Shown piece after piece: positions 3,109-11,774 of a stretch of DNA of 44,762 nt; position 1 is the first letter of the stretch; every line of letters starts with the position of its first letter. A model generated the notes under the pieces. The model had not been told where the DNA came from. It did not search any database and saw only the letters and a list, made by a program, of their open reading frames with translations. The stretch is from Asanoa iriomotensis. GTDB lineage: Bacteria > Actinomycetota > Actinomycetes > Mycobacteriales > Micromonosporaceae. The position numbers were made by a program, and so were the translations under genes. The stretch covers positions 1 through 44,762 of the forward strand of contig NZ_BONC01000064.1 in NCBI RefSeq assembly GCF_016862515.1. Reading direction: 5' to 3'.

Positions 3109-4659
3109 TCAGGGGTTGATCCGGCCCGCGCCGGCACCCGAGGTGACGATCGACTTCACGTTGTTCGCGTTGTCGAGCTGGTAGGAGTACGGGATCGACG
3201 ACGTGCTGCCGGCGCTCTGCGGTGTGCCGCTGCCGACGAACACGTTGTTGCGCTGCACGAGGGCGCCCGGGTCCGAGTCCGCGTAGCCCACGAGGGTGGG
3301 CTCGTCGACGTTCTCGAAGTAGTTGCCCTCGACCAGCACACCCGCGTCCATCGTGGACGCGACGCCGTACTCGTTGTTGTAGTAGTAGTTGTTGTAGACG
3401 TGCACCGGGTTGCCGAAGCGCACCCGCGGATGCCGGGTTCCGGAGCCGTCGAACCAGTTGTGGTGGTAGGAGACCCGCAGGTGCCCGACGTCCTGTGACG
3501 CGTTGTCGTCGGAGTGGCCGAGCAGCATCGACTTGTCGTGGCCGTACACCCGGTTCCAGGAGACCGTGACGAAGTCGGAGCCGCGCTTGACGTCGACCGC
3601 GCCGTCGTACCCGTTGGTGAAGCTGTTGTGGTCGACCCAGATGTTGGTCGCCGACTGCTCGACGTTGATGGCGTCGTCGTCCCAGTCGCGGAACGACAGG
3701 TTGCGGATGATGACGTTGCGGTCGCCGTTGACGGTGAAGCCGCAGCCAGCGATCGTCGCGCCCGAGTTGCCGAGGATCGTCTTGTTGGACCGCACCCGGA
3801 TCATGCCCGAGCACGAGATCGTGCCGCTGACCCTGATCACCGCGGCGCCGGTGGCACCGACCGCGCTGGTGAGCGCGGACGCGCTGGTGACCGTCGTGGC
3901 CGAGGTGCTGCCGCCGCCGGTCGTGCCGCCGTTCTGCGTGGCCCAGCCGACCAGGCCGGTCTGCGGCGGCGTGGTCGGGCCACCGGTCGGCGGGTTCGTC
4001 GGCGGCGGCGTGGTCGGGTTGCCGGTCGGCGGCGTCGACGCGTCCGAGCTGACCACCACGTCGTCGAACCGGGCCGACGCGAACACCGTCACCAGGCCGA
4101 TCCGGCCCGCGCTGTGTGCGCTGTTGCTGCCCGAGGCGATCCGGGTGCCGTTGACGAAGCCCGAGACGGTGCTGCCGTTGGCGTCGATCCGCAGCGTGTA
4201 CCAGGTGCCGGTGGACACGGTCAGCGACGCCGAGCCGATCACCGTCACCGACGAGCCGTCGACCGCCTGCAGTTCGGCGCGATTGGCGTTGGTCAGCGCC
4301 AGCCGGTACATCTTGGTGGCCGACGACGACCGGGCCGCCAGCGCGACGAGCCGGTTGCTGCCGTTGAAGCTCAGGGGCTTCACCCGGGCCTGCACCGAGT
4401 ACGCGGTCCAGCTCGTCTGGCCGGCGAACTCGCGGGCCAGCTCACTGTCTGTCTTGGACTGCGTAAAGGTCGGTGAACCCTCGGTCACCACCGACCAGTC
4501 GCCGCCGGACTTCGACCAGCCGCTCGCCTCGCCGTCGTTGAAGTCGTCGGAGAAGAGCGTCGCCGCCCGCGCGACGCCGCCCAACCCGAACGCGACCACG
4601 ATGGCGGCCAGGGCGCCCGCGACGACCGCGAGCAAGCCCCGGCGTGCCGTTCTGCTCAT
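3109..4659 (-). CDS. Secreted pectate lyase, PL1 family, with N-terminal ConA-like (LamG/DUF1080-type) domain
   Basis: Predicted extracellular enzyme (516 aa) that cleaves de-esterified pectin by beta-elimination. An Arg-containing, hydrophobic signal peptide ends near ARA-A (residues 30-33). Residues ~34-205 look like a concanavalin A-like sandwich domain; a Pro/Thr/Gly linker (~206-235) leads to a right-handed beta-helix PL1 domain. Visible PL1 motifs are WVDHNSF (341-347), the Asp-rich calcium segment DGAVDVKRG (352-360) and RHPRVRFG (409-416), which holds the candidate catalytic Arg. The ATG at 4659 follows GGAGGAGA at good spacing. It lies only 11 bp after the stop of the paralogous upstream lyase, so the two are probably cotranscribed, and they share the same domain order. 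The N-terminal domain may bind substrate, but this is inferred. Confidence 0.93.
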   Translation of the reverse strand: MSRTARRGLLAVVAGALAAIVVAFGLGGVARAATLFSDDFNDGEASGWSKSGGDWSVVTEGSPTFTQSKTDSELAREFAGQTSWTAYSVQARVKPLSFNGSNRLVALAARSSSATKMYRLALTNANRAELQAVDGSSVTVIGSASLTVSTGTWYTLRIDANGSTVSGFVNGTRIASGSNSAHSAGRIGLVTVFASARFDDVVVSSDASTPPTGNPTTPPPTNPPTGGPTTPPQTGLVGWATQNGGTTGGGSTSATTVTSASALTSAVGATGAAVIRVSGTISCSGMIRVRSNKTILGNSGATIAGCGFTVNGDRNVIIRNLSFRDWDDDAINVEQSATNIWVDHNSFTNGYDGAVDVKRGSDFVTVSWNRVYGHDKSMLLGHSDDNASQDVGHLRVSYHHNWFDGSGTRHPRVRFGNPVHVYNNYYYNNEYGVASTMDAGVLVEGNYFENVDEPTLVGYADSDPGALVQRNNVFVGSGTPQSAGSTSSIPYSYQLDNANNVKSIVTSGAGAGRINP

Positions 4660-4670
4660 GACTCTCCTCC

Positions 4671-6272
4671 TCAGATCCGGCCGGTGCCGGCTTGCGCGGA
4701 CACGGTCGACTGCACCTGGGCGCAGGGCAGCAGGGTGTACGGGTACGGGACGGCGGACACGCTGCCGCCGGCTTCGCCCGCACCGGAGTTGGTGAAGCAG
4801 TTGTTCCTGGCCACGATCCGGCCCGGCCCGGACGATGCCTCGCCCAGGTGGAACGGGTCGTCGACGTTCACGAACGCGTTGCCCTCGACGATCACGCCGG
4901 CGTTCTCGGTGGACGCGACGCCGTAGTTGCCGGTGTCGTTGTAGTAGTTGTTGTAGACGTGCACCTGGTCGCCGAACCGGACGCGCGGGTTGCGCTGGTT
5001 GGTGGCGTCGAACCAGTTGTGGTGGTAGCTCACTTTCAACCGGCCGGTGTCCTGCGCGCCGTTGTCGTCGTCGTGGCCGAGCAGCATGTTCTTGTCGGTG
5101 CCGTCCGCGTGGTTGTAGGAGATCGTCACGTACGACGAGCCACGCTTGACGTCGACGCCGCCGTCGGTGCCGGTCGTCCAGGTGTTGTGGTCGATCCACA
5201 CGTGGTGGCTGAACATCTGCACGTTGATGGCGTCGTCCGGCCAGCCGCGGAAGTTCAGGTTGCGGACGATCACGTTGTGCACCGCGTCGGACGGCGGTGA
5301 GGTGATGTCGTCGTCGATCGGCAGGCCGATGTTGAGGCCGCCGCCGGTCAGGCCGGAGCCGGAGCCCAGCCCGACGATCGTCTTGTCGGACGTCACGTCG
5401 TGCATCGGGCCGGGCAGCGTGAGCATGCCCTGCACCTGGACGATCCGCGGGCCGGGTTGGGCGATCGCCGACAGGAACGCCGACGCGCTGGTCACGGTCA
5501 CGGTCGGGCCGCCGGCGCCGCCGCTGGTGCCGTTCTGGCCCCACGCGTCCACCGAAGCCCAGCCGTCGGCCACGTTGGGTTGCGGCGGGTTGGTCGGCAC
5601 ATTCGTCGGGGTCGCCGTCGGCGTCGGCGTCGGTCCGGCGCCGGTGGTGACCGCGACGTCGTCGAAGCTCGCGGTCGTGTAGAAGGTGGCCACGCCGACC
5701 CGCCCGCTGCTCCAGTTGCTGTCGCTGGCCTCCGTGAGCAGCGAGCCGTTGACGTAACCGCGCAACGTCGAACCGGTGACCTCGAGCCGCAGCGTGTGCC
5801 AGGAGCCCGCGCTCACGCCGACGGAGGCGGTGTCCAGTGTGGTCGACGAACCGCCGACCAGTCGCTTGAGCTCGACGGTGTTGTTGGACCGCAGGGCCAG
5901 GTAGTAGTAGCTGGTGCTGCTCTGCACCCGGGCGAGCACGGCCGCGAAACGGTTGCTGCCGTTGAAGCTGATCGGCCTGACCCGGGCCTGCACGGAGTAG
6001 TCGGTCCAGCTCGCCGTGCCCGCCAGGGCCCGGGCGTCGCTGCTGGTGCTGCTCTGGCGGAGCACGCGGGAGCCGTCGGTGGTGACCGTCCAGCTCCCTC
6101 CGTTCGTGGTCCACCCGGCCGAGTTGCCGTCCTCGAAGTCGTCGGAGAGCAGCGTGGCGGCGCTTGCTCCCGTGGTGGTCAGGCCGAGGACCAGCGCCGC
6201 GGCGGCCATGCCGGCCCCGAAGGCCAGCAGCAGGCCGCGGCGACGTGATCGCCAGGCTGGGTTGGGTGACAC
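4671..6272 (-). CDS. Secreted pectate lyase, PL1 family, with N-terminal ConA-like domain (paralogue)
   Basis: Predicted secreted pectate lyase of 533 aa with the same layout as its downstream neighbour: signal peptide with RSRRR n-region and a cut near ASA-A, ConA-like domain, Thr/Pro linker, PL1 beta-helix. PL1 motifs include WIDHNTW, DGGVDVKRG and RNPRVRFG. The GTG start at 6272 is chosen because it follows AAAGGAGG at ideal spacing and opens directly on the signal peptide; longer readings of this frame add about 98 residues without protein-like character. The two tandem lyases share phrases such as VSYHHNWFD and RVRFG-x2-VHVYNNYY, pointing to a local duplication followed by divergence. 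The promoter is not obvious, since only 76 bp separate it from the stop of the third lyase. Confidence 0.93.
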   Translation of the reverse strand: MSPNPAWRSRRRGLLLAFGAGMAAAALVLGLTTTGASAATLLSDDFEDGNSAGWTTNGGSWTVTTDGSRVLRQSSTSSDARALAGTASWTDYSVQARVRPISFNGSNRFAAVLARVQSSTSYYYLALRSNNTVELKRLVGGSSTTLDTASVGVSAGSWHTLRLEVTGSTLRGYVNGSLLTEASDSNWSSGRVGVATFYTTASFDDVAVTTGAGPTPTPTATPTNVPTNPPQPNVADGWASVDAWGQNGTSGGAGGPTVTVTSASAFLSAIAQPGPRIVQVQGMLTLPGPMHDVTSDKTIVGLGSGSGLTGGGLNIGLPIDDDITSPPSDAVHNVIVRNLNFRGWPDDAINVQMFSHHVWIDHNTWTTGTDGGVDVKRGSSYVTISYNHADGTDKNMLLGHDDDNGAQDTGRLKVSYHHNWFDATNQRNPRVRFGDQVHVYNNYYNDTGNYGVASTENAGVIVEGNAFVNVDDPFHLGEASSGPGRIVARNNCFTNSGAGEAGGSVSAVPYPYTLLPCAQVQSTVSAQAGTGRI

Positions 6273-6284
6273 GGATCCTCCTTT

Positions 6285-6302
6285 GATCGATGTTTGTCGA
6301 TC
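6285..6302. promoter_or_regulatory. Inverted repeat upstream of the tandem pectate lyases
   Basis: GATCGA-N6-TCGATC is a perfect 6-bp-arm dyad just upstream of the lyase Shine-Dalgarno; it also reads as TCGAT direct repeats 10 bp apart. The half-site resembles the arms of the dyad at 7715-7737 before the third lyase (TATCGAA/TTCGATA). It may be an operator for a shared pectin regulator or just a small hairpin in the leader. Confidence 0.4.
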
Positions 6303-6308
6303 TCTGAA

Positions 6309-6345
6309 GGTGCGGGAAGCCCGGGCTGAAAACGCCTCCCGCACC
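6309..6345 (-). terminator. Hairpin terminator after the third pectate lyase gene
   Basis: A 9-bp perfect stem (GGTGCGGGA/TCCCGCACC) encloses a 19-nt loop that itself contains the palindrome AGCCCGGGCT. It starts 4 nt beyond the stop of the upstream lyase and precedes the tandem lyases, so it may terminate or attenuate transcription between them. No U-tract is present. Confidence 0.55.
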
Positions 6346-6348
6346 GGC

Positions 6349-7659
6349 CTAGATGGACAACCGACGGGCGCCCGCGCACAGCTCGACGACCAGCGCCGCC
6401 GCCGGAGCGGGCAGGACGGGACCGGCGCGCAGGCTGGGCGTCCAGCCGGCGTCCGGCGCGATGTCCGGGTCGTGCGCCGAGTTGTAGGCGGCGAGCAGGT
6501 TGACCGGCTTCGGCAGCGACCACCCGGAGCGGACCCACGTGCCCTTCTCGGAGAGCACGGTGCCACCCCAGTCGAAGACGAACGAGTCCGGCGGCACGGC
6601 GGCGCCGAGCGCGACGTAGTTGTTCTCGGCGTAGATGGCCGACTGCACGCCGACGCCCCAGCTGTACTCGTAGGGGTCCGCCACCGGCACCCGGTAGAGG
6701 TTGTTGTAGACGTCGACCTGGCCGAACCGCACCCGCGGCGCGCGCTGCACGCTGCCGTCGAACTCGTTGTGGTGCAGCGTCACCTTCAGCGCGCCCACGT
6801 CGGCGCCCGGCGTGTTGGTCGAGCCGATCAGCATGGTCTTGTCGTGGTTGGTGAACCGGTTGTAGGAGACCGTCACGTAGTTGCTGCCGTTGGTGATGTC
6901 GACCTGCCCGTCGTGCACCTGGTACGGCCGGCCGAAGCGCAGCGGCTGCGCCGCGTCCGGGTTGTCGGCGTCGGTGAACGTGTTGTGGTCGACCCAGACG
7001 TGGTGCGAGTTGCGGATCCAGATGTTGTCGTACGCCGCGTTCCAGTTGCCGGTCTCGCCATCGGTCGGGGACCAGACCGGGAAGCAGTCGCGGGCGTCCT
7101 CGTGGGTGATGTTCCGGATGATCACATTGGAGCTGCCGTCGAGCCGGAGGAAGACCCCGTTCAGCCGGGCGTCGCCGAGGCCGATGATGGTCTTGTTGGA
7201 GCCGACGTTGACCCGCACCCGGGCGCTCTGGTTGGCGGCCGAACGCACCCGCGCCTCCTCCAGCGGCCCGCTGGGCGCGACGCGACCCCAGACCGCCGGG
7301 TCAAAAGCGGCGAGAAACGCGTCGAGGGAGTACGCCGGGTCGGCGAACTGTTCGCACGACAGCGGCGCACCGGCGGCGTCGGCATTTCCACGAATGGTGC
7401 CGCGGACGAAGACGATCGCCGGTGTCGTGCCGGCGACGGCGGCCGCGAGTTCGTCGCGGTTGGTCACGTGGAACACGTTTTCCGGCGCGGCCGCCGCACC
7501 GCCGGTCGTGCCGGTCCCCTCGGCCGCCCAACCGTCGCCGGCGGGCAGCATTTGCCGGGCGACCCGCTCGCTGAGCGGCACGGACGCCGCCGCGGCGGGT
7601 GCCGCGACGGCGATGACAAGCACGCCGGCCACGCCGGCGGCGAGACCTCGAAATCGCAT
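6349..7659 (-). CDS. Secreted pectate lyase, PL1 family (single-domain)
   Basis: Predicted secreted pectate lyase of 436 aa, without the extra ConA-like domain of its two neighbours. A signal peptide (MRFRG, then a hydrophobic Ala/Val core) ends around AAA-A near residue 24. The beta-helix carries WVDHNTF, the calcium-site segment around DGQVDITNGSNYVTVSYN, NHDKTMLIG and QRAPRVRFG, all typical of PL1 enzymes of the PelC type. The ATG at 7659 is preferred over an in-frame codon 14 codons upstream because it opens on the signal peptide and follows CGGAG at about 8 nt. It is read from a recognisable promoter embedded in two dyads (7684-7737) and is followed by a hairpin. It is probably the first gene of the lyase group and inducible by pectin products, by inference from the operators. 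Confidence 0.93.
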   Translation of the reverse strand: MRFRGLAAGVAGVLVIAVAAPAAAASVPLSERVARQMLPAGDGWAAEGTGTTGGAAAAPENVFHVTNRDELAAAVAGTTPAIVFVRGTIRGNADAAGAPLSCEQFADPAYSLDAFLAAFDPAVWGRVAPSGPLEEARVRSAANQSARVRVNVGSNKTIIGLGDARLNGVFLRLDGSSNVIIRNITHEDARDCFPVWSPTDGETGNWNAAYDNIWIRNSHHVWVDHNTFTDADNPDAAQPLRFGRPYQVHDGQVDITNGSNYVTVSYNRFTNHDKTMLIGSTNTPGADVGALKVTLHHNEFDGSVQRAPRVRFGQVDVYNNLYRVPVADPYEYSWGVGVQSAIYAENNYVALGAAVPPDSFVFDWGGTVLSEKGTWVRSGWSLPKPVNLLAAYNSAHDPDIAPDAGWTPSLRAGPVLPAPAAALVVELCAGARRLSI

Positions 7660-7683
7660 TGACACACTCCGATCACAACCTGG

Positions 7684-7737
7684 ATACCTATTGTGAAACA
7701 TAGGTATTGGTCATTATCGAAGTCAATGCTTTCGATA
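7684..7737 (-). promoter_or_regulatory. Pectate lyase promoter with two different operator-like dyads
   Basis: On the minus strand a -35 TTGACT (7721-7726) is 18 nt from a -10 TATGTT (7697-7702), placing transcription start about 30 nt before the lyase ATG. Dyad A, ATACCTAT-N8-ATAGGTAT (7684-7707), is perfect and covers the -10. Dyad B, TATCGAA-N9-TTCGATA (7715-7737), is perfect and covers the -35. The stretch is clearly more AT-rich than its surroundings. The repeat architecture suggests two separate repressors, or one repressor plus another regulator; the proteins are not identified. Confidence 0.6.
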
Positions 7738-7813: not shown

Positions 7814-9031
7814 CTATTTCCGGGCGGTGCCCGGCCCTGTTGTTTGCAGACTGTTTTCCGTGTGCGGCGGATGGGCCCACGGCACGCCCAGCTCCGACGG
7901 CAGCGCGTGCTGCTCCGCGGCCCGGCGGAGCACGCCGTTGATGCCGCGGATCGAGCGGACCCGCTGCGGCCCGGCGCCGAGGTCGGCGACGACTCCGTCG
8001 CCGAGCGCCGCCGGCGCGGGCGCCGCGCCGAGCGCCTCGACCACCGCGGTGAAGCCCGCGGTGGCCGCCAGTGCTGCCCGCAGCGGCACGCCGGCCCGGT
8101 CGGCGCGGTGCGCGAGCAGGTTGTCGAGCAGGTCGACCCGGCCGGGCACCTCGCGCATCCCGGGGTCGCCGGGCAGCCGGAGGCGGTCGGTCGGGTACTC
8201 CAGCGTCGCACTCCCCCGCGTCCCGGTGACGGTGATCTCCCCGGGGATGAGCTCCTCGCCGGCCAGCGTGACGGCGACGACCACCGGCGGGCGCCCCTGG
8301 CCGGTCAACCGGAGCACGGCCGTGTCGTCACTCTCGATCGGCCGCGTCCGGTAGCGCTCCACCTCGAGGGTTTTCGGCACGCTTTGCTCTGCATCCAGAT
8401 ACGCACCACCCCCGGTGACCAGCGGTGCGTATCTGGAAGCAGAGCAAACCCTGTCGGCGAGGGCCAGGGACTGCATGACCGCGTGGCCGAGTGGATTGAT
8501 CAGAGCGCCGTCCACCGCGCGCCTGCCCGCCCAGGGCGACCGGGCGTAGTACGCGTCGTCGCGCTGCCAGGAAGCGACCGCCGCGATGCCCGTGACCGTG
8601 CCGAGGGCGCCGCCCTCGACGGCAGCGCACAGCTCGTCGTAGGCCGCCGACGCCAGCGCCTGGAAGCCCACCTGGCAGGACCGGCCGGCTTCGGCCAGCG
8701 CCGCGACCAGCCTGGTGTGGTCAGCCAGCGACAGCAGCGGCGGCTTCTCCAGCAGCAGGTCGCAGCGGGCGGCCAGGGCGTCCAGCGCGATCGGCAGGTG
8801 GGTGCCCGGTGGTGTGCAGATCACCACGACGTCGGGGCGGGTCTCGGCGAGCAGCGTGTGGTGGTCGGGGAAGAGCCGGGTTCCGGGCGGGACCGGCGGG
8901 TCCGGGTCGAGCGGGTTCGGCTCGGCGATGCCGACGAACGCGATCGCACCCGACTCGTGTCTCGGGGCCAGCCGCCGCCGGTGCCAGCGGCCGTGGCCGT
9001 TGGCACCGATCAGCGCGACCCGGACGGTCAT
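7814..9031 (-). CDS. Gfo/Idh/MocA-family NAD(P)-dependent oxidoreductase with palindrome-encoded insert
   Basis: Predicted cytosolic sugar or polyol dehydrogenase of 405 aa. The N-terminal Rossmann fold shows LIGANGHGRWH (7-17) and the family EKP motif at E95-K96-P97; a C-terminal substrate domain follows, with EVERYRTRPIESDDTA around 223-238. It is the last gene of a five-gene operon, and its ATG overlaps the stop of the preceding gene (ATGA, 9028-9031), implying translational coupling. Substrate unknown; context suggests a pectin-derived sugar acid or side-chain sugar. Oddity: residues 195-217, between ...LALADR and the EVERYR strand, are encoded by a 66-bp near-perfect palindrome (8383-8448). 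From memory of the family this segment is normally short, so it looks like an in-frame insertion. Whether the protein remains active cannot be seen. Confidence 0.88.
   Translation of the reverse strand: MTVRVALIGANGHGRWHRRRLAPRHESGAIAFVGIAEPNPLDPDPPVPPGTRLFPDHHTLLAETRPDVVVICTPPGTHLPIALDALAARCDLLLEKPPLLSLADHTRLVAALAEAGRSCQVGFQALASAAYDELCAAVEGGALGTVTGIAAVASWQRDDAYYARSPWAGRRAVDGALINPLGHAVMQSLALADRVCSASRYAPLVTGGGAYLDAEQSVPKTLEVERYRTRPIESDDTAVLRLTGQGRPPVVVAVTLAGEELIPGEITVTGTRGSATLEYPTDRLRLPGDPGMREVPGRVDLLDNLLAHRADRAGVPLRAALAATAGFTAVVEALGAAPAPAALGDGVVADLGAGPQRVRSIRGINGVLRRAAEQHALPSELGVPWAHPPHTENSLQTTGPGTARK
8383..8448. repeat. 66-bp palindromic element inside a coding sequence
   Basis: Two 25-bp arms (8383-8407 and 8424-8448) are inverted copies differing at one position, separated by a 16-bp loop. 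The outer ends read TTTGCTCTGC and GCAGAGCAAA. The unit is 66 bp, exactly 22 codons, with no stop in the host frame, so the gene stays open. In size and shape it resembles REP/MITE or Rickettsia-type palindromic elements. No second copy is seen in this window. Confidence 0.85.
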
Positions 9032-10491
9032 GCGCCGGCCAACGTGGACTCGACGCCGTGCTTGTCGAACTCGGTCAGCCAGTCGACGACCAGCTCCCGC
9101 ACGGTCTCGTCGCCGGCCAGCTCCGCCGGGAAGACGGCGGTGAGGCCGAACAGCGCACCGGCGAGTCCGTCCGGAGTGGACGGAGCCGCCGCGACCGCGG
9201 CGCGGATCTGGGCGGCCAGCGGGTCGTCCAGCTCCAGCGTCCGGCCGTCGTCGGCGATGCCGCGGGCATAGCGCATCCACGCCGCCACGACCAGCGCTCC
9301 CCAGCGGGGAGCCGCGCCGGCCGCCCGGCGATCGCGGATCGTCTCCAGCACCCGCTGCGGCAGCTTCTGCGTGCCGTCCATGGCGACCTGGGTGGTGCGG
9401 TGGGCGATCGCCGGGTTCGCGAACCGCTCCAGCGCCAACTCGCCATATTCGACGACGGAGACGCCGTCCGGTGGGGTGAAGCTGGGGGCGATGTCCTCGG
9501 CGACGAACCGGCGCATCGCGTCGGCCAGGCCAGGCATCCGGTGCGCGTCGGCGATCGTCGCCCGGCCCGCCAGCACGCCCAGGTAGGCCATACCCGAGTG
9601 CACCCCGTTGAGGGCGCGCAGCTTGAGCCGCTCCCAGGGCCCGGCGTCGTCGGTCAGCACCGCGCCGGCCGCCTCCCAGGCCGGCCGCCCGCCCGGGAAG
9701 TCGTCCTCGATCACCCATTGCCGGTAGGGCTCGCCGTAGACCGCGGCCTCGTCGCGCACGCCCAGCACCGCGGCCGCCACGGCCCGGCTGGCATCCGTCG
9801 AGGCCGGCACGATCCGGTCGACCATCGTGCCGGGGCAGCGGACGTTGGCGCGCAGCCACTCGTCGTCCTGCCCGGCACGGTTGAACGCCGCCTCGAGCAT
9901 GCCGCTGGTGCGGCGCCCGTTGGAGGAGAAGTTGTCGCAGCTCACGATCGCGATCGGGCCGGCGTCGGCACGGGAGCGGGCGACCAGGCCGCGGAACAGC
10001 AGCCCCGGCACCGTCGTCGGCGGCCGGTCGCCGCGCAGGTCGGCGTCCAGCGCGGGGTCGTCCAGTAGCCGGCCGGTCGCCGGGTCGAGCCGATAGGCCT
10101 TCTCCGTGACGCACAGCGTCACCACCCGGATCGCCGGGTCGGCCAGCAACGCGACCACAGCCTCCGGATCGGCCGCGGCGGTCCGGGCGCCGGCGAACGC
10201 GCCGACCACCCGCGCCCGCGCGCCGTCGGCGGACATGTCGCTGACGCTGTAGAGCAGGTCCTGGGCCCGCAGCGCAGCGACGACGTCGGTCGAGCGGGGC
10301 GCGACGCCGACGATCCCCCATTCGCCGCCGGCCGCCGCGACCGCCTCCTCGGTGTAGACCGCCTGGTGCGCGCGGTGGAACGCACCGAGTCCGATGTGCA
10401 CGATGCCGGCCGGCACCGTGCCGGGGCGCACGAGCGGCCGGCTCTCCACGGGCAGCCGCCGCAGCGAGCCGAGCCCGAGCAGCGGGGTCAT
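9028..10491 (-). CDS. Mannitol dehydrogenase-family oxidoreductase, probable fructuronate/tagaturonate reductase (UxuB-type)
   Basis: Predicted NAD(H)-dependent reductase of 487 aa. The N-terminal cofactor domain contains IVHIGLGAFHRAH (30-42), and the C-terminal domain contains the polyol-specific long-chain dehydrogenase signature K290-x4-N295-x2-H298 (KLRALNGVH), including the catalytic Lys. In uronate catabolism this family reduces D-fructuronate to D-mannonate or D-tagaturonate to D-altronate; other members oxidise mannitol or arabinitol. Location downstream of UxaC supports the uronate role. The ATG at 10491 overlaps the stop of the FucD-like gene (ATGA), and its own TGA overlaps the next ATG, so this part of the operon is fully coupled. 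Exact substrate (fructuronate, tagaturonate or polyol) cannot be decided by reading alone. Confidence 0.87.
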   Translation of the reverse strand: MTPLLGLGSLRRLPVESRPLVRPGTVPAGIVHIGLGAFHRAHQAVYTEEAVAAAGGEWGIVGVAPRSTDVVAALRAQDLLYSVSDMSADGARARVVGAFAGARTAAADPEAVVALLADPAIRVVTLCVTEKAYRLDPATGRLLDDPALDADLRGDRPPTTVPGLLFRGLVARSRADAGPIAIVSCDNFSSNGRRTSGMLEAAFNRAGQDDEWLRANVRCPGTMVDRIVPASTDASRAVAAAVLGVRDEAAVYGEPYRQWVIEDDFPGGRPAWEAAGAVLTDDAGPWERLKLRALNGVHSGMAYLGVLAGRATIADAHRMPGLADAMRRFVAEDIAPSFTPPDGVSVVEYGELALERFANPAIAHRTTQVAMDGTQKLPQRVLETIRDRRAAGAAPRWGALVVAAWMRYARGIADDGRTLELDDPLAAQIRAAVAAAPSTPDGLAGALFGLTAVFPAELAGDETVRELVVDWLTEFDKHGVESTLAGA

Positions 10492-11774
10492 CGCCACACC
10501 GGCCCGTCCGGGAACGAGAACCGTTCCACCGACTCGGGTTTCATCGTGGCGCTGTAGCCCGGTGCGGTGGGCAGCAGATAGCGGCCGCCGCTCGTGCGCA
10601 CGGGGTCGACGAAGTGCTCGTGCAGGTGATCCACGTATTCCACCATCCGTCCCTCGAGTGCCGTGCCGACCCGCAGGAAGTCGAAGAAGGCCAGGTGCTG
10701 CACCAGCTCGCAGAGGCCGACGCCGCCGGCGTGCGGGCAGACCGGCACACCGAACTTCGCGGCCAGCAGCAGCTCGGCGAGCACCTCGTTGACGCCGCCG
10801 ACCCGGCAGGCGTCGATCTGCATGACGCCGATCGCGTCGGCCTGGAGGAGCTGCTTGAAGATCACCCGGTTGGCCGCGACCTCGCCGGTGGCCACCCTGA
10901 TCGGCGCGACCGCGCGCTGGACGCGGGCGTGGCCGAGCACGTCGTCGGCGTGGGTCGGCTCCTCGATCCAGTAGGGGTCGACCTCGGCCAGCCGGGCCAT
11001 CGCGGCGATCGCCTGGTCGACGTCCCAGACCTGGTTGGCGTCCATCATCAGCAGCGCGTCCGGGCCGATCTCGTCCCGGATGATCCGGGCCCGGCGCACG
11101 TCGTCCTCGAGGTCGCCGCCGACCTTCATCTTCATGGCCCGCCAACCCTCGGCGTACGCGGCGCGGGTCAGCGCCCGTACCTTGTCGTCCGGGTAGCCCA
11201 GCCAGCCGACCGACGTGGTGTAGGACGGGAAGCCCTCCCGCTCGACCAGCGCCAGCCGCTCCGCGTACCCCTTCTGACCGTTGTCGAGGATGGCCGCCGC
11301 GTCGTCCGGGGTGAGCGCGTCGGTGATGTGGTGGAAGTCGACGTTCGCGACGAGCTCGTCCGTCGGCATCTCGGCGAGCAGACGCCACAGCGGCACGCCG
11401 GCGGCCTTGGCCCGCAGGTCCCAGACCGCGTTGACCAGGGCGCCGGTGGCCATGTGGATGACGCCTTTCTCCGGGCCCAGCCAGCGCAGCTGCGGGTCGG
11501 CGGTCAGCGAGCGCCAGAACGCGACGGGCTCGGCGGCGATCTCCGCCAGCGTCCGGCCGGTGACGTGCCGGGACAGCGCCTCGACCGCGGCGCAGGTGAT
11601 CTCGTTGCCGCGACCGTTGGTGAAGGTGAAGCCGGCGCCGGTGAGGTCCCCGTCGGTGCGCAGCTCCACATAGGTCGCCGAGTAGTCGCCGCGGTTGATG
11701 GCGTCGGAGCCGTCGCCCGTGTCGGCGGTCGGGAACCGCACGTCGTGCACCTCGACGGCGCGGATGGTGGTCAC
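10488..11774 (-). CDS. Enolase-superfamily sugar-acid dehydratase, L-fuconate dehydratase (FucD/ENOSF1) type
   Basis: Predicted Mg2+-dependent dehydratase of 428 aa that would remove water from an aldonate to give a 2-keto-3-deoxy acid. Superfamily residues are all visible: K215 and K217 (KMKVG), metal ligands D245 (with N247), E271 and E298, and the D321/H348 dyad. The N-terminal DTGDGSDAINRGDYSATYV and TNGRGNEITCAAVEAL segments are hallmarks of the L-fuconate dehydratase branch rather than of mannonate or galactonate dehydratases. The GTG start at 11774 overlaps the UxaC stop (GTGA) and follows AAGGAG. Because it is coupled to UxaC and a UxuB-type reductase and no UxuA is present, it may act on the aldonate made by the reductase, or it may handle L-fuconate or a related acid from pectin side chains. 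The second reading follows the family; the first is inference. Confidence 0.9.
   Translation of the reverse strand: MTTIRAVEVHDVRFPTADTGDGSDAINRGDYSATYVELRTDGDLTGAGFTFTNGRGNEITCAAVEALSRHVTGRTLAEIAAEPVAFWRSLTADPQLRWLGPEKGVIHMATGALVNAVWDLRAKAAGVPLWRLLAEMPTDELVANVDFHHITDALTPDDAAAILDNGQKGYAERLALVEREGFPSYTTSVGWLGYPDDKVRALTRAAYAEGWRAMKMKVGGDLEDDVRRARIIRDEIGPDALLMMDANQVWDVDQAIAAMARLAEVDPYWIEEPTHADDVLGHARVQRAVAPIRVATGEVAANRVIFKQLLQADAIGVMQIDACRVGGVNEVLAELLLAAKFGVPVCPHAGGVGLCELVQHLAFFDFLRVGTALEGRMVEYVDHLHEHFVDPVRTSGGRYLLPTAPGYSATMKPESVERFSFPDGPVWR

Follow-up and report, generated by a model that had tools for sequence, protein, structure and literature searches.

A palindrome carried in frame by an Asanoa oxidoreductase gene belongs to a dispersed family of hairpin-forming palindromes in Micromonosporaceae

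The palindrome at positions 8383-8448 of the window, that is, of the whole stretch of 44,762 nucleotides of the Asanoa iriomotensis genome analysed here, belongs to a family of palindromes that form hairpins and are dispersed in Micromonosporaceae genomes, with a core that is mostly about 60-70 bp long and loops that are sometimes longer. The family is REP-like and probably non-autonomous. The copy in the window is translated in frame with its host gene, falls in a tolerated region of the protein and is absent from the A. ishikariensis orthologue and from those aligned of other genera, and is in these respects an RPE-like in-frame palindromic insertion; the Rickettsia palindromic elements are likewise inserted in frame in proteins. 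The explanation that we believe to be probably correct is that of a Micromonosporaceae family of REP-like palindromes with ancestral in-frame insertion, spreading in trans and rewriting of the arms.

The first-pass annotation described a near-perfect palindrome at this site, and this description was confirmed. The inverted repeat consists of two 25-bp arms (8383-8407 and 8424-8448) with one mismatch between them and a 16-bp loop (8408-8423), all on the plus strand; arm 1 runs from a TTGCTCTGC tip through a variable middle to GCA close to the loop, and arm 2 is the complement of arm 1 except for the mismatch. With laxer ends, there is an extended, unstranded inverted repeat (8375-8456) with 33-nt arms (8375-8407 and 8424-8456) that are 88% complementary. 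When up to three mismatches are allowed, the arm pattern has two matches in the window, one per arm, against 0.00 expected from 100 shuffles, and the sense RNA of the palindrome folds at -56.3 kcal/mol (z -8.99), a value that none of 200 shuffles equals. The host gene (7814-9031, minus strand) encodes a 405-aa oxidoreductase of the Gfo/Idh/MocA family (Pfam GFO_IDH_MocA, E 2.3e-16), and its frame stays open through the palindrome, as originally claimed, with codons 195-217, counted from the gene coordinates, contributed by it. In the AlphaFold model of the host protein (mean pLDDT 89.8), pLDDT falls below 50 in only two stretches, the C-terminal residues 398-405 and residues 201-214, the latter situated between a helix (182-200) and a strand (221-228); as modelled, the palindrome-encoded segment is a low-confidence, probably disordered loop. 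The upstream neighbour, a scanned stretch at 9028-10500 on the minus strand with the start not fixed, belongs by Pfam to the mannitol dehydrogenase family. A pectate lyase gene (Pfam; 6349-7701, minus strand) adjoins the sugar-acid genes, and further ORFs that resemble it in look are found at 3109-6566.

The suggestion that the palindrome belongs to a repeat family is borne out by the rest of the genome (8.57 Mb in 187 contigs) and by the relatives of A. iriomotensis. A search with the 86-base region as the query yields 20 distinct places at E <1e-8, one of which is a half copy, and the 25-base arm has 34 matches with up to three mismatches compared to 0 for the reversed pattern. The 34 arm matches make up 14 close inverted pairs and six singles; beside five of the singles lies a second arm that has diverged further, and the sixth is the half copy. 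On contig 18, two copies lie 350 bp apart with a further degenerate copy between them. By the predictions of a rough codon-usage caller, 18 of the 20 copies are outside genes or at a gene edge and two are inside. A covariance model built from 19 of these copies detects the family in all six Asanoa genomes, namely that of A. iriomotensis (G000), Asanoa siamensis NBRC 107932 (G005), Asanoa ishikariensis DSM 44718 (G001) and three others (G002, G003 and G004), and in at least 72 of 200 genomes and at least 17 of 44 genera of Micromonosporaceae. A second model, broader in scope and run with a stricter limit, has matches in at least 62 of 397 genomes from the order, of which at least 60 are from Micromonosporaceae; among the matches listed, two genomes outside the family have weaker ones. 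The approximate numbers of places per genome, obtained as half of the two-strand match numbers, are 20 for A. iriomotensis, 16 for A. siamensis, 18 for A. ishikariensis, 28 for G003, 29 for G004 and 53 for G002, all of these being lower bounds because 150 candidates per genome were scored. The plasmid and phage records contain no match to the palindrome, and the six loci given to Rfam produce 0 matches at the gathering score. A half element consisting of a single arm is located at G000:C26:58335-58367 (L030), with a full element at the matching place in A. siamensis (L130).

The history of the window site itself can be read from an alignment of the six Asanoa loci with 21 loci from other genera (L089 excluded). 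The palindrome occupies the same spot of the host gene in five of the six Asanoa species, the site in A. ishikariensis being empty, and is absent from the aligned host-gene segment in the 21 rows from other genera, which is what the orthologue comparison proposed by the first-pass annotation was meant to establish; among 80 named loci, paired exact tips occur in A. siamensis only. The A. ishikariensis orthologue reads through in frame and is 69 nt (23 codons) shorter than the A. iriomotensis segment, so that the earlier count of 66 bp, or 22 codons, stands for the core and fails for the insert. The borders are too diverged to name the exact insert or to show a target-site duplication, and the tip-to-tip core lengths in the five species are 60, 60, 65, 65 and 116 bp. 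By nucleotide identity, the nearest relative of A. ishikariensis is G003 (about 92%), which has the palindrome; therefore, the simplest reading of these identities is that A. ishikariensis lost the palindrome and that the insertion should predate the Asanoa species. The insertion of the window copy would have taken place in the Asanoa ancestor, in frame and within a stretch that forms a surface loop, where the copy could have been tolerated as translated filler. Between the five species, the arms at this site differ at 2-7 of 25 positions, compared to 0, 0, 1, 1 and 1 differences within a copy; the flanks of the A. iriomotensis site are 79-89% identical to those of the other species. Read from the alignment, the reading frame of arm 1 in A. 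iriomotensis and A. siamensis differs from that in G002, G003 and G004, with the palindrome kept, so that what is constrained is the DNA or RNA and not the peptide. The loops of A. iriomotensis and A. siamensis score 0.88 when one of them is inverted and 0.32 when it is not.

The second in-frame copy (G000:C2:239476; L027:1500-1557) resides in the linker of a MocR-type regulator, between the GntR domain (residues 16-77) and the aminotransferase domain (from residue 124). Sequence is present at this place in all six Asanoa orthologues (L281-L286), with both arms readable in five and a single eroded arm remaining in G004, and the palindrome is absent in the three other aligned regulator rows (G011, G012 and a G001 paralogue). 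Stop codons are scarce in copies of the family: of 540 frames, 455 are open, on average about 5.1 of the six per copy compared to 2.68 for shuffled letters, and in 35 of 90 copies all six are open, so tolerance in frame comes easily.

The most surprising feature of the family is the way its arms and loops change. The arms were compared in 90 copies (19 from A. iriomotensis, 15 from A. siamensis, 14 from A. ishikariensis, 17 from G003, 16 from G004 and 9 from G002) of roughly 164 in the genus, which are the best scores of the model built from A. iriomotensis copies, so that the sample favours well-kept palindromes. L017, which overlaps L011, was excluded from the counts, L109 from the arm site test and L065 from the loop tests; L087 and L090 are the second halves of L073 and L082. 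In 24 aligned copies, TTGCTCTGC and GCA are invariant, 97.5% of the cells are paired and both sides have changed in 13 of 27 pairs, and none of 500 shuffles reaches any of the five pairing measures. Thus, the arms stay complementary while changing. Among the 53 copies at shared sites, the mean arm difference is 2.03 for one species and different sites (246 pairs), 3.38 for one site and different species (58 pairs) and 3.18 when both site and species differ (1074 pairs); when species labels were permuted within sites, none of 2000 permutations gave a same-species value so low. Loops at the same site are more alike than permuted ones (0.702 vs 0.634, a value not reached in any of 2000 permutations) whereas same-site arms are not (3.15 vs 3.21, 579 of 2000). 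Hence it is the arms, not the loops, that are alike within a species, and likeness of the loops follows the site. Between A. ishikariensis and G003, the two nearest species, arms and loops are less clearly set apart, with arm differences of 1.50 at the same site and 2.02 at other sites and loop scores of 0.73 and 0.60, respectively (8 and 113 pairs). Of 18 same-site pairs with a loop score of at least 0.8, six gain in score when one loop is inverted; a single G004 copy takes part in three of these six, and another of them is the window site, A. iriomotensis compared with A. siamensis. In a direct test for copying between arms of different copies, 16 of the 49 copies with mismatched arms had both of these arms at other places of their own genome, and 15 had both in the other five species. 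Among four arms folded alone as DNA, those of the window fold weakly (-2.8 and -3.4 kcal/mol) and those from A. siamensis and G004 no better than shuffles. In G002, elements with different arm dialects lie side by side, two in L274 and three in L109.

The explanation that we favour, copying and arm rewriting within a dispersed family, would accommodate these patterns as follows. The spread of the copies would be due to a putative enzyme acting in trans and recognising the conserved tip, TTGCTCTGC ... GCA; repair templated by the other arm during replication and copying between arms of different copies would jointly maintain the palindromes and give rise to an arm dialect in each species. A narrower formulation is that of a hairpin-repeat system of actinobacteria that has no RAYT, with loops and positions inherited and the arms of all copies rewritten in place to the species dialect by a putative cellular enzyme; were this a recombinase or resolvase that acts on the hairpin, the inverted loops at shared sites would be explained as well. 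This formulation is offered tentatively and is, in our estimate, unlikely to hold in this form. Among the neighbours of 92 elements, no transposase-like family recurs beside unrelated copies in blastp clusters of three or more. The recurrent neighbour genes considered as sources of the enzyme were rejected: these clusters group orthologues from shared sites, to which some paralogues are joined, the scanned ones among the joined paralogues encode zinc dehydrogenases and an ABC ATPase, and the only cluster drawn from three different sites (L096, L160 and L161) consists of LacI-type regulators, all of these being common families and not transposases.

Much of this pattern would also follow from selection on a hairpin that is recognised. 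Under this possible but less likely alternative, each palindrome is a functional recognition site, a hairpin of DNA or RNA to which a protein acting in trans binds; this protein would have drifted in each species with the sites following suit, comparable to the species dialects of DNA uptake sequences. Conservation of the tip across genera, retention of places across species, species-wide arm differences at retained places and pairs changed on both sides are all expected of such a site. The dialect positions, however, vary within one genome (in A. iriomotensis, ATC is found in 16, TTC in 11 and TTA in 6 of 38 arms) and also among the Micromonospora copies seen, which makes a strict reading unlikely; furthermore, places can be empty, one in-gene copy has eroded to a single arm in G004, and the copies scanned have no common gene function beside them.

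Could the dialects instead result from repeated replacement, with hot-spot sites re-invaded by the currently active element of each species? The species-specific arms at shared sites and the two adjacent elements at one G002 site would fit, and some loop types are common enough that 119 of 984 unrelated pairs score at least 0.8. Nevertheless, this scenario is improbable, given that the loops keep a memory of the site that none of the 2000 permutations reproduces and that, in several same-site pairs (L005/L132, L008/L127, L008/L153 and L140/L158), loops score 0.88-1.00 with 2-6 arm positions changed, the changes affecting both sides; L140 and L158 have even an old arm mismatch in common.

Gain and loss of elements can be followed at individual sites, ten of which were searched as joined flanks, with two of them aligned base by base. 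At the L178 site (G003:C18:18142), the element is full in G003 and absent in A. ishikariensis (94% identical flanks), G004, G002 and A. siamensis, an apparent gain in G003, with room for at most 2-3 duplicated bases (CG/GCG); A. iriomotensis has an unrelated palindrome cluster at this site. Another site is full in A. ishikariensis, G003 and G002, with two elements in the latter, and empty in A. siamensis, G004 and A. iriomotensis. Of 92 elements classed by placement (85 from Asanoa and 7 from other genera), 42 lie in same-direction, 27 in convergent and 13 in divergent gaps, the rest being inside genes (8, orthologues of two sites) or unclear (2). Compared to 140 background gaps without an element (71 same-direction, 16 convergent and 53 divergent), there is an excess in convergent gaps (27/82 vs 16/140, p 0.0002) and a deficit in divergent ones (13/82 vs 53/140, p 0.0005), these p values being too small because orthologous sites are counted several times.

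Such placement is reminiscent of REPs, and several further likenesses can be named. According to the relevant passages of PMC3733652, GTAG- and CGTC-tagged REPs are short palindromes that lie mostly between genes, in convergent or same-direction gaps, with some in frame within genes, and the CGTC-tagged group is without a dedicated transposase; in the corresponding passages of PMC3116915 and PMC8049555, REPINs are two inverted repeats plus a spacer that form one hairpin and persist vertically, their copying being attributed to RAYT transposases (PMC8049555). The Asanoa family has in common with the REPs so described the palindromic form, the mostly extragenic placement and some in-frame copies, and with the REPINs the two inverted repeats plus spacer, the single hairpin and the vertical persistence; like both, it is a repeated hairpin palindrome found mostly outside genes. 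A canonical REP or REPIN moved by a RAYT could show all of this, together with the convergent bias (in the same passages of PMC3733652 and PMC3116915), but is highly improbable: neither GTAG nor CGTC is a conserved column in the 19-copy and 24-copy alignments, among 90 copies, 13 contain GTAG and 17 contain CGTC at some position, not at a fixed end, GTAG in the G002 dialect lies inside the arm, and, unlike in REPINs, Y1_Tnp (PF01797) was detected in one of the six Asanoa genomes, as a partial match with one stop. The arms (25-30 bp) are also longer than those of the REPs in the passages of PMC3733652. Because a conserved tag is absent and the Y1 match is limited to one of six genomes, we place the family outside the REP/RAYT system; canonical REP membership is not supported.

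As for a regulatory hairpin or terminator of the host operon, we give it next to no credence: the fold is strong (z -8.99), but it lies inside a coding frame, no T-run of an intrinsic terminator is seen beside 19 aligned copies, the same element stands beside many other genes and the site is empty in A. ishikariensis, and a special mRNA-hairpin role in the operon, the other reading initially put forward, is not supported because most copies are outside predicted genes, beside mostly unrelated genes.

The rickettsial elements, as told in part of PMC3733652, are in-frame palindromic insertions in proteins, which the Asanoa family makes as well, a likeness by description; the phylum is another one and, unlike the rickettsial elements, most copies of the Asanoa family are outside predicted genes. 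The family has in common with MITEs that its inverted repeats carry no gene, whereas the A. iriomotensis genome shows no parent element with the same ends and no pair of arms far apart, and the one site read for target-site duplication allows at most 2-3 bp. The family is a variant of REP-like/RPE-like palindromes, in-frame palindromic repeats as such being already known from the pertinent part of PMC3733652. In the main text of that paper, the words Micromonospora, Salinispora, Streptomyces and Actinobacteria are absent; the passages of the REPIN papers do not describe likeness of arms within species at kept sites such as that in Asanoa, and the word 'concerted' is absent from PMC8049555. Among the open-licence papers listed in literature searches, no title points to an earlier account of such a repeat; one of these papers, PMC5765111, uses 'palindrom' for CRISPR.

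In the Asanoa family, inheritance of sites and loops extends across the genus with no RAYT apparent, and the two arms of a copy change in step and agree with those of other copies in the genome, so that the upkeep of perfect palindromes becomes testable. For the same site, the family offers natural examples of the full, empty, eroded and loop-inverted condition, and one such site is inside a protein with apparently disordered extra residues. At L170:2492-2604 in G004, one element is partially duplicated in tandem, with arm and loop repeated, possibly a copying intermediate or a slippage product. The A. iriomotensis genome also contains a second, unrelated palindromic repeat with the core GGAACGGWCCGTTCC, spaced at 30 bp in L269 (G000:C32:26953-27047); the pattern CGATTGGAACGGACCGTTCC, with up to three mismatches, has 43 matches on each strand of this genome compared to 0 for the reversed control, and the GGAACGGWCCGTTCC-core repeat occupies one place where G003 bears an element of the window type.
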